A stretch of 41,314 bases of DNA from a candidate division CPR2 bacterium GW2011_GWC2_39_35 (lineage in GTDB: Bacteria; Patescibacteriota; CPR2), in NCBI GenBank assembly GCA_000995065.1, contig LBWX01000004.1, forward strand, positions 78,431 to 119,744, given 5' to 3'. Shown piece by piece: positions 11,973 through 30,889 of this stretch. How positions within the stretch are numbered: position 1 is the stretch's first letter; every line of letters begins with the position of its first letter. Made by a program: the position numbers and the translations under genes. The notes under the pieces are model-generated. The model ran no database searches. It saw only the letters and a list, made by a program, of their open reading frames with translations, and had not been told where the DNA came from.

Positions 11973-12131
11973 TCACCTAGAATTAGTTTCGTTACTTTCC
12001 ATCTCACCAGCATTTATTATCTTTATCTCCGTTTTTTTGTTTTCTCTCATAAATAAAAGACCAACTAGAAACATCATAATTATTAATAGTGCTGCAATAA
12101 TGTGGTTTAAACCCTCATCATTCTCTGGCAT
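11973..12131 (-). CDS. Small single-span membrane protein, 52 residues, overlapping recG
   Basis: A 52-codon frame whose ATG lies inside the last codons of recG, a 14-bp overlap in another frame, typical of translational coupling. The product has a short acidic N-terminus (MPENDEG), one hydrophobic span (IIAALLIIMMFLVGLLFM, about residues 11-28) and a polar tail (RENKKTEIKII onward). No family is recognised. There is no strong Shine-Dalgarno. The clean span with charged flanks favours a real small protein, but this rests on one sequence. The GC-rich stretch just beyond it (11900-11935) is not coding as far as I can see. Confidence 0.45.
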   Translation of the reverse strand: MPENDEGLNHIIAALLIIMMFLVGLLFMRENKKTEIKIINAGEMESNETNSR

Positions 12132-14256
12132 ATTCAATGCTTTCTACTTTTTCTTTTAAAACTGGCACGGTTTTTAATTCTGGATCTTTGCCTAAAAACC
12201 ATTGGGCCGCATCCCTTACCTTGGAAATTAATTTGATGTCCGTAAATTTGGCAATTTTTAAGTCTGACCAGCCGGACTGACGGGTCCCCATAAATTCCCC
12301 CGGCCCCCGGATTTCCAAATCCGATTCGGCTAATTTAAATCCATCCTGATTTGTAACTAGAGTATTGAGACGTTTTGTAGTTGTCGTATCGAAATTAGTA
12401 TTGGTATTGGTAAACAAGAGACAATAGCTTTTATGCTCTCCTCTCCCAACTCGTCCCCTAAACTGATGAAGTTGGGCCAGACCAAATCGCTCCGCCCCCT
12501 CAATAACCATAATGCTGGCATTAGGCACATCTACTCCCACTTCAATAACGGAAGTAGAAACTAAGATGTCGCACTTGCCCATCTTAAAGTCGTTCATTAT
12601 TTCTTCTTTTTCTTTGGATTTCATTTTGCCATGTAAGAGCCCTACCTTTAGATTCGGAAAAATATTTTCCGATAGATTCTTATGCTCATCTGTAGCCGCT
12701 TTTAGATCCATTTTTTCCGATTCTTTAACAAGCGGACAGATTACAAAGCATTGCCGGCCGTCACTTACATGTTTTTTTATAAACTCATATGCCGCTTCCC
12801 TCTTATCATGTGACACTAACTTAGTAGTAATTTCCTGCCGACCCGGCGGTAATTCATCAATAACAGAAACATCAAGATCGCCAAAAATAGTAAGCTGCAG
12901 CGATCTGGGGATCGGAGTTGCCGTCATGGAAAGAAAATGAGGAAAATTTCCATCAGAGGGTTCGACCCTCTCTTGGAGGGTCGAACCCTCCCCCAAACCA
13001 CTTCTTTTTCTTAAAGCCTGGCGCTGATCCACACCAAACCGATGCTGCTCGTCTACTATTGCCAGAGCCAGACTCTTAAATTCCAACTTATCCGAAACTA
13101 AGGCGTGTGTACCAATAGCAACATCAATATCACCTTCTTTAATTAATTTTATTAGTTCTCCCCTTTTAATTTTTAAATTGCAATTTTGAATTTTGCCTTT
13201 TGAATTTTGCCTTTTTATTTGCGCTTCTTTCCCAGTAATGAGCCCGATATTTAGACCGAATGGCACTAAAACCTTACTTAGTCCGTCAAAATGCTGTTTG
13301 GCCAAAATTTCCGTCGGCGCCATTAGAACGGCTTGATATTTAGCTTTTGCGACTAGGTACATGGCAAACGCCGCCACGATAGTTTTTCCGGAGCCGACAT
13401 CTCCCTGAACCAAGCGGTTCATTGGATGATCTTTTTTAAGGTCTTTTATAATCTCCCAGCAAACCCGTTTTTGAGCATTAGTTAAAGAAAACGAAAGACT
13501 ATCTACAAACTCTTTGGCCTTATTTTCTTCAAATGGAACTGAAACCGCTTTTTCTTTAGCCATTCCCATTTTTTGTTTTAAACCGGAGAGTAAAATGATA
13601 AATAGCTCGTCAAAAGCCAGCCTTTTTCTAGCTTCCGCAAGCTCTAATTTGTTATTTGGAAAATGAATCGCCCTTACAGCCGATGGCAGATCGGTTAGGC
13701 CTTCTCTTTTTTTTAGAGTTTCCGGCAAAGGGTCTTTTATATTAAAGACAAGCTTTAAAAGAGGTTTTATTTGGTAACGAAGCCACTTAGACGTTAAGCC
13801 TTCAGTTTCCGGATACACCGGCACAATCCGTCCAACATGCTTTAGATCAACTGACAATTTTTCCCAAGCCGGGCTTATCATCACAATTTGGCCGTAGTTA
13901 AACTCCGGTTTACCCGCCAGCACAATTTCGTCTCCCATTTTTAAGCTTTTTGTTAGAAATGGCTGGTTGAACCAGGTAACTTTCATGGTACCGGTATCGT
14001 CAGCCACAACAGCCTCGGTAATAGTCATCCGCCGATTTCTGGACTTTTTATTGGCAATTTGCCAGATATTTCCTTTAATAGTTATACTTTCCCCGGGACG
14101 TGTTTTGGAAATTGGCACGATAGTTGAAAAATCCTCATATCTTCTTGGGTAATACAAAAGTAAATCCTCAACTGTATTAAGACCAAGTTTATGAAGTTTC
14201 TTGGCATAATTCGCCCCAACACCACTTAACGTTTCTACTGATGTATTTAAATTCAT
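12118..14256 (-). CDS. recG: ATP-dependent DNA helicase RecG, with two repeat-derived insertions
   Basis: A 712-residue RecG, the double-strand translocase that remodels stalled forks and Holliday junctions. The N-terminal part has the helix-hairpin-helix-like GVGANYAKKLHKLGL and an OB wedge domain. Helicase motifs follow: Walker A GDVGSGKT (285-292), DEQHRFG (402-408), SMTATPIPRSL, and the C-terminal lobe with GRVGRGEHKSYC. Two inserts look foreign: about residues 349-364 (RQNSKGKIQNCNLKIK), matching an intergenic repeat, and about 421-436, encoded by a perfect 15-nt inverted repeat. The start is the ATG at 14256, 6 nt after a TACAAT box; an in-frame ATG 6 codons upstream would lie within that promoter. 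Confidence 0.93.
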   Translation of the reverse strand: MNLNTSVETLSGVGANYAKKLHKLGLNTVEDLLLYYPRRYEDFSTIVPISKTRPGESITIKGNIWQIANKKSRNRRMTITEAVVADDTGTMKVTWFNQPFLTKSLKMGDEIVLAGKPEFNYGQIVMISPAWEKLSVDLKHVGRIVPVYPETEGLTSKWLRYQIKPLLKLVFNIKDPLPETLKKREGLTDLPSAVRAIHFPNNKLELAEARKRLAFDELFIILLSGLKQKMGMAKEKAVSVPFEENKAKEFVDSLSFSLTNAQKRVCWEIIKDLKKDHPMNRLVQGDVGSGKTIVAAFAMYLVAKAKYQAVLMAPTEILAKQHFDGLSKVLVPFGLNIGLITGKEAQIKRQNSKGKIQNCNLKIKRGELIKLIKEGDIDVAIGTHALVSDKLEFKSLALAIVDEQHRFGVDQRQALRKRSGLGEGSTLQERVEPSDGNFPHFLSMTATPIPRSLQLTIFGDLDVSVIDELPPGRQEITTKLVSHDKREAAYEFIKKHVSDGRQCFVICPLVKESEKMDLKAATDEHKNLSENIFPNLKVGLLHGKMKSKEKEEIMNDFKMGKCDILVSTSVIEVGVDVPNASIMVIEGAERFGLAQLHQFRGRVGRGEHKSYCLLFTNTNTNFDTTTTKRLNTLVTNQDGFKLAESDLEIRGPGEFMGTRQSGWSDLKIAKFTDIKLISKVRDAAQWFLGKDPELKTVPVLKEKVESIEYARE
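12956..12990. repeat. Perfect inverted repeat inside recG coding sequence
   Basis: Two 15-nt arms (GAGGGTTCGACCCTC and its reverse complement) separated by 5 nt. Each arm is itself a near-palindrome like a tRNA T-arm. It lies in frame and encodes part of SGLGEGSTLQERVEPSDG, just before the conserved FPHFLSMTATPIPR. Confidence 0.8.
13165..13212. repeat. Low-complexity repeat inside recG coding sequence
   Basis: The minus strand reads AAAGGCAAAATTCAAAA words, including two tandem GGCAAAATTCAAAA units, then AATTGCAATT. The same words fill the gap before the PBP gene (15965-16020), and weaker ones lie at 23683-23712. It is in frame and encodes RQNSKGKIQNCNLKIK. Confidence 0.6.
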
Positions 14257-14262
14257 GGGTAT

Positions 14263-14268
14263 ATTGTA
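14263..14268 (-). promoter_or_regulatory. Extended -10 box of a leaderless promoter for recG
   Basis: TACAAT on the minus strand, preceded by TGC (extended -10) and ending 6 nt before the ATG at 14256. No Shine-Dalgarno is present. Confidence 0.5.
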
Positions 14269-14301
14269 GCACATTGCTAACTTCGGTTTTCAAATTTGAG
14301 T

Positions 14302-23772: not shown

Positions 23773-24699
23773 CTATTCGCCCAGTTCCACTATCACAAAC
23801 CTATCCAGTCCGGCCCAATCTTTTTCCCAAGTTACTTTTGCATCTGGAAAAACGTTTTTTACTATTTTTACCATTTTTTCGCCCTGCCTCTCGCCTATTT
23901 CCACAAACATTTTGCCGCCTTTTTTTATCTTTTCCGGCGCCTTACCAAAAAATTCCCGATACAAATCTAAACCATCCCCCCCTCCTTCTAAAGCAATCCG
24001 AGGTTCATGATGAAGAATATCCAAAGAAAGTGAGGACATATCTTCTGATGGTACGTAAGGTAAATTTGCCACGATTAAATCTACTTTTTGGGGTAACGGT
24101 TCTAATAAATTACCTTGCAAGATTTTTACGTTTTTAACCTTATTTAACTTGGCGTTTTTCCTTGCAACTTTTAGAGCGTCCTTAGAAACATCCGTTAGAT
24201 AAACTTTAGCCTTAGGTAAATTTTTGGCTAGAGAGATACCGATTGCCCCGGATCCTGTGCCAATATCGGCAATTGTTAGTCCTTTACCAGATGCTACAGA
24301 TCCCCTTTTACCGTCATCCTGAACTTGTTTCAGGATCCTGTCTTGCAATTGGGGAGATCCTGAAACAAGTTCAGGATGACAGGTGTGAGACAACACTTTC
24401 TCCACCAAAATCTCCGTCTCAGGCCGCGGAATTAATACATCTTGGTTTACCTTAAAATCAAGCCCGCAAAAATGCTCATAGCCGGTGATATACCAGACCG
24501 GCAGATGCTTCGATCTTTTTTTGACCCAACGCTTAAATTTCCGCTCCTCCCCTAAACTAAGTTTAGTTTCGGGATAAGCCAAAATAAAACTCAAGTCTTT
24601 TTTAACGATTTGTTTTAATAAAAACCGAGCTGCTTCTTTTGGCTCGTCGGTTTCTTTTAGTTTATCATAAGCGTATTTTAAAGCTTCTTTATTAGTCAT
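23773..24699 (-). CDS. prmC: Release factor glutamine methyltransferase with repeat-derived insert
   Basis: A 308-residue class I SAM methyltransferase that methylates the GGQ glutamine of RF1/RF2. The N-terminal helical domain leads to LIPRPETEILVE (89-100), then the SAM motif IADIGTGSGAIGI (143-155) and a substrate motif NLPY (212-215), where most PrmC have NPPY. Residues about 106-130 (CHPELVSGSPQLQDRILKQ and following) are extra and encoded by a perfect 25-nt inverted repeat. They fall in a loop between the PETE helix and SAM motif I, where added length may be tolerated. The gene follows the transglutaminase-like gene by 4 bp. Confidence 0.93.
   Translation of the reverse strand: MTNKEALKYAYDKLKETDEPKEAARFLLKQIVKKDLSFILAYPETKLSLGEERKFKRWVKKRSKHLPVWYITGYEHFCGLDFKVNQDVLIPRPETEILVEKVLSHTCHPELVSGSPQLQDRILKQVQDDGKRGSVASGKGLTIADIGTGSGAIGISLAKNLPKAKVYLTDVSKDALKVARKNAKLNKVKNVKILQGNLLEPLPQKVDLIVANLPYVPSEDMSSLSLDILHHEPRIALEGGGDGLDLYREFFGKAPEKIKKGGKMFVEIGERQGEKMVKIVKNVFPDAKVTWEKDWAGLDRFVIVELGE
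24313..24380. repeat. Perfect 25-nt inverted repeat inside prmC (PELVSGS-type element)
   Basis: Arms at 24313-24337 and 24356-24380 are exact reverse complements around an 18-nt loop. The core word CCTGAACTTGTTTCAGGATC belongs to a dispersed palindrome that I recognise from many bacterial genomes as translating to PELVSGS. Here it is in frame with prmC. Confidence 0.88.
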
Positions 24700-30860: not shown

Positions 30861-30889
30861 TTTTATCCTTCGACAAGCTCAGGATAAAA
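30861..30889 (-). promoter_or_regulatory. Hairpin holding the ribosome-binding site of the LysM-CHAP gene
   Basis: Perfect 9-bp arms (TTTTATCCT / AGGATAAAA) around an 11-nt loop. The downstream arm includes the AGGA ribosome-binding site and ends 1 nt before the TTG start. The loop word CTTCGACAAGCTC belongs to a common dispersed repeat, so the control element may come from a repeat. Confidence 0.55.

Follow-up and report, generated by a model that had tools for sequence, protein, structure and literature searches.

A CGTC-type palindromic repeat lies in frame within prmC of a CPR2 bacterium, and other palindromes occupy the same loop in other Patescibacteria

Results

A palindromic element is embedded in an intact prmC gene

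We analysed a window of 41,314 nucleotides from the candidate division CPR2 bacterium GW2011_GWC2_39_35 (contig LBWX01000004.1, assembly GCA_000995065.1), whose genome of 1.12 Mb is referred to here as G000 and its class relatives as G001, G002 and so on. The window carries prmC (23773-24699, minus strand), which encodes a release-factor glutamine methyltransferase of 308 aa matching TIGR03534 over the cut-off, and within this intact open reading frame lies a 68-bp element composed of two inverted units (CHPELVSGSPQLQDRILKQVQDD, 24313-24380). Unit 1 (24313-24337, plus strand) has a (C)GTC tag and a stem ATCCTGAA/TTCAGGAT with the loop CTTGT, and unit 2 (24356-24380, minus strand) is the identical sequence on the other strand with a (T)GTC tag. 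As claimed in the original prediction, which was made from this sequence, the two arms of 25 nt each are 100% complementary, are separated by 18 nt (24338-24355) and lie wholly within prmC, with no break of the frame across them. The insert occupies gene nucleotides 320-387, that is codons 107-129, and the peptides expected from it include HPELVSGSPQLQDR and QVQDDGK. It sits at the predicted site, after the PRPETE helix and before SAM motif I; its size, about 23 residues, falls short of the roughly 25 first proposed. The dimer has a single open frame out of three on each strand, and prmC reads through exactly that frame. A long, near-perfect hairpin is predicted at the insert (−43.5 kcal/mol, folding parameter set unchecked), and the single-sequence AlphaFold model of the insert-bearing PrmC has a mean pLDDT of 42, too low for structural use.

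The repeat is dispersed within the genome and across phyla

The core word of the palindrome matches twice in the window against 0.16 matches expected by chance, and further copies of this word lie elsewhere in the genome. In the whole genome collection, the exact 25-mer is found in at least 117 stretches, compared with about 0.0005 expected, in hosts that include Sphingomonadales, Bacteroidota, Treponema, Rickettsiales, Gastranaerophilales and Patescibacteria, among others. A chance origin of the prmC inverted repeat is excluded, and the view of the element as a widespread dispersed palindrome holds. Among 138 exact copies in other phyla, none is in prmC and 13 are inside open frames of at least 180 aa, many of them close to the N-terminal end and some within questionable ORFs.

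Copies were searched with the pattern GTCATYC-N13-16-GRATC, using the reversed pattern as control. The pattern matched 17 times in G000, 75 times in G001 and 36 times in G002, with 1-4 matches each in G008, G012, G006 and G009; the control gave 0-1 matches. About 4 of the 17 matches in G000 represent a different repeat (GTCATCCCCGTGAA...). This longer repeat, GTCATCCCCGTGAA(A/T)ACTTAGGATC, has four copies (G000:C1:227942, C3:70117, C1:153196 and C2:274040), two of which were seen with near-identical flanks. In the regions fetched from G001, the repeats are mostly intergenic. A hairpin at 30861-30889 of the window (ATCCTTCGACAAGCTCAGGAT) had been proposed as a shorter relative of the prmC palindrome; it is present, between two minus-strand genes, and carries a REP-like word on a stem of another type.

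The anatomy is that of CGTC-tagged REPs

CGTC-tagged REPs are described as having an unpaired CGTC/TGTC tag, an 8-bp stem starting with AT (8-9 bp across published examples), a loop of 5 nt (4-5 nt) and a CCA-like tail, and as forming dimers that are mostly intergenic and in some cases intragenic, with no linked transposase (Di Nocera et al., 2013; PMC3733652). On this anatomy, we assign the prmC element to the CGTC-tagged REPs, as a dimer. In 84 copies analysed here, the stem is 8 bp and the loop 5 nt. The search pattern itself prescribes both the AT that opens the stem and the GTC of the tag; a pyrimidine (T or C) precedes this GTC in all 84. The pattern leaves stem pairs 8/20 to 11/17 free, and these are mostly Watson-Crick and of several pair types, indicating covariation. 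The tail is CCA-like, with C then CA in 45 of the 84 copies and CCT/CTC at the ends of the prmC copies. The repeat is also present in many dispersed copies (the 17 matches in G000 include the few from the other repeat) and as dimers, with 24 in the fetched regions, and no linked transposase accompanies it.

The original prediction had drawn a parallel with Rickettsia palindromic elements (RPEs). This parallel is literal, because RPE-4 and RPE-6 belong to the CGTC REP superfamily (PMC3733652). Both systems place palindromes in frame in conserved genes, here prmC and queA; RPE units measure 105-146 bp (PMC2229807) versus 68 bp here, and the phylum differs. The kind of element is already known; its host group is new, and so is its recurrence: the available text of the CGTC survey makes no mention of Patescibacteria (PMC3733652), in which PrmC, QueA, YchF and RecG are hit here, and the literature searched yielded no account of these repeats from Patescibacteria.

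One PrmC loop is occupied by unrelated palindromes

The PrmC of Thermotoga maritima (1NV8) lacks the insert, with 9 residues between the aligned blocks compared with 38 here. Since the segment is missing from solved PrmC structures, it is not part of the fold core; judged by the alignment, it would form a surface loop. Among 124 parsed Patescibacteria PrmC genes, PRPETE and motif I lie 21-77 residues apart and most genes lack the insert. In 15 of the 124, a palindrome is found in the same loop (some were called by eye; 6 pass a strict inverted-repeat score); six of these carriers belong to the class of the window (G000, G001, G002, G004, G007 and G011) and nine are elsewhere. The palindromes are of CGTC, GTAG and GTCATTGCGAG types, one is a perfect 40-nt palindrome, and other kinds occur as well. 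In the aligned relatives the segment is either missing or replaced by a different palindrome, and a shared segment with non-palindromic DNA was not encountered. These prmC genes contain 15 strong inverted repeats where codon shuffles give 0.67; the loop, which makes up 5% of the sequence, holds 6 of the 15 (p ~8e-5).

Because the class is small (16 genomes), independence was tested at the level of the phylum. On a PrmC tree computed with the loop left out, the palindrome trait needs 12 changes, counted as gains or losses, of which at least 8 are forced by well-supported branches. An empty site at nucleotide level was not found among the relatives; the nearest are 58% identical and likewise occupied, so the exact ends of the insert and any target duplication are unreadable. 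Viral contigs yielded one PrmC relative, too few for alignment.

The pattern of prmC recurs in queA, ychF and recG

That relatives and further genes are hit again goes beyond what was predicted. In queA, G000 carries a CGTC dimer, G002 a related degenerate dimer and G001 a short GGGTT(A/C)GACCC-like palindrome at that place. In ychF, G001 and G002 (87% identical) carry different CGTC dimers at exactly the same nucleotide. The window itself holds a second in-frame palindrome, at 12956-12990 in recG (12118-14274, minus strand), just before the MTATPIPR motif. It consists of two inverted copies of GAGGGTTCGACCCTC and belongs to a different dispersed family (GGGTTCGACCC), with 17 half-sites in G000 versus 1 in the control; the ychF of G000 holds a palindrome of this second family. 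In the recG of G001 (L452), the same loop holds degenerate CGTC arms and a second loop holds another CGTC dimer. This single gene bears in-frame palindromic inserts at two distinct loops. The pattern in queA, ychF and recG is that of prmC. Comparable reuse of a site appears once in the available text of the CGTC survey, where recB of two Xanthomonas species has different REPs at about the same place (PMC3733652); here reuse of one loop spans many lineages.

The dimer is the probable mobile unit

The queA dimer of G000 is a near-identical 68-bp unit, also in frame, and its spacer is identical to that of prmC in 16 of 18 nt. Since both length and spacer are shared, the dimer rather than the single REP probably moves as one unit. 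Two inverted REPs and their spacer are likewise described as the probable mobile unit of REPINs, which are associated with RAYT transposases (Bertels and Rainey, 2011; PMC3116915). REP dimers fall into length classes of 56, 61-62, 68-69, 73 and 79-81 bp. Their spacers cluster near 6, 11-12, 18-19, 23 and 29-31 nt, in steps of about 6 nt that perhaps reflect a helical-phase constraint.

RAYT-like genes also occur here, but unlike in REPIN/RAYT systems they are not flanked by REPs: the single Y1/RAYT-like gene of G000 (G000:C5:28782-29120) has no flanking copies, and at the genes examined no REP directly flanks a RAYT-like gene, the nearest being about 180 bp away. Y1/RAYT-like genes are absent from the 4 genomes with 1-4 REP copies and present in the 12 with at least 7. 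The correlation between REP copies and RAYT-like genes (rho 0.75, p 0.0009) is uncorrected for kinship and denotes co-occurrence only; it provides a lead toward the mobiliser of CGTC REPs.

Discussion

We consider it about 85% probable that a mobile CGTC-type REP dimer of ~68 bp inserted in frame in prmC and was kept because the loop tolerates extra residues. REP dimers would insert at many genomic places, gene-breaking copies would be lost and in-frame copies would survive in permissive loops; in prmC, the dimer would have entered in the sole stop-free frame per strand, in the loop that separates the PRPETE helix from SAM motif I. The dispersal of the repeat and its absence or replacement in relatives argue for the Rickettsia-like process that had been proposed. 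Occupied sites may later be overwritten by other REP copies, leading to turnover, as we infer from ychF and family f3, in which elements share a position but differ in their stems.

These same observations could also be read as one ancient insertion, instead of several, in the ancestor of the class, the relatives then diverging by conversion or replacement of arms. Family f3, with an element at the same codon and different stems in three genomes, and the ychF dimers fit such a history. Across the phylum, however, the palindrome families are wholly different, empty lineages lie in between and the tree forces no fewer than 8 changes. We place the chances of this history a little short of even.

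Selection for the insert, with the peptide or a stable mRNA hairpin regulating PrmC or release-factor methylation, appears improbable. One loop of a translation enzyme is hit again in many lineages and two further targets, queA and ychF, are translation-linked, but neither peptides nor hairpins at this site are related from one lineage to another, most relatives have no insert, and recG, a non-translation gene, behaves alike. Moreover, the guanylate kinase of R. conorii stays active with an RPE insert, the effect being neutral or slightly harmful (PMC2229807). The insert in PrmC would similarly be near neutral and lack a dedicated function, and the enzyme would still work. It is most improbable that the protein never contains the insert, through its excision from the mRNA or ribosomal bypassing: the near-perfect long hairpin might suggest this, but no stop interrupts the insert, its length preserves the frame, and the single half-elements in G002 and G007 likewise keep the reading frame, which bypass would not require.

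With the prmC element, in-frame palindrome insertion, known from Rickettsia and Proteobacteria, reaches the small-genome Patescibacteria, where unrelated palindromes fill one and the same protein loop in many lineages. Tentatively, and with the odds clearly against it, a handful of loops in essential housekeeping proteins of this phylum may be standing docking sites. Once occupied, they would be overwritten repeatedly by other REP copies or families, which stand-alone RAYT-like nucleases would move in trans. If so, turnover of the loop peptides would be driven by DNA hairpins and not by point mutation. The occupied and empty versions of PrmC, QueA, YchF and RecG form a natural series for testing the neutrality of such inserts.
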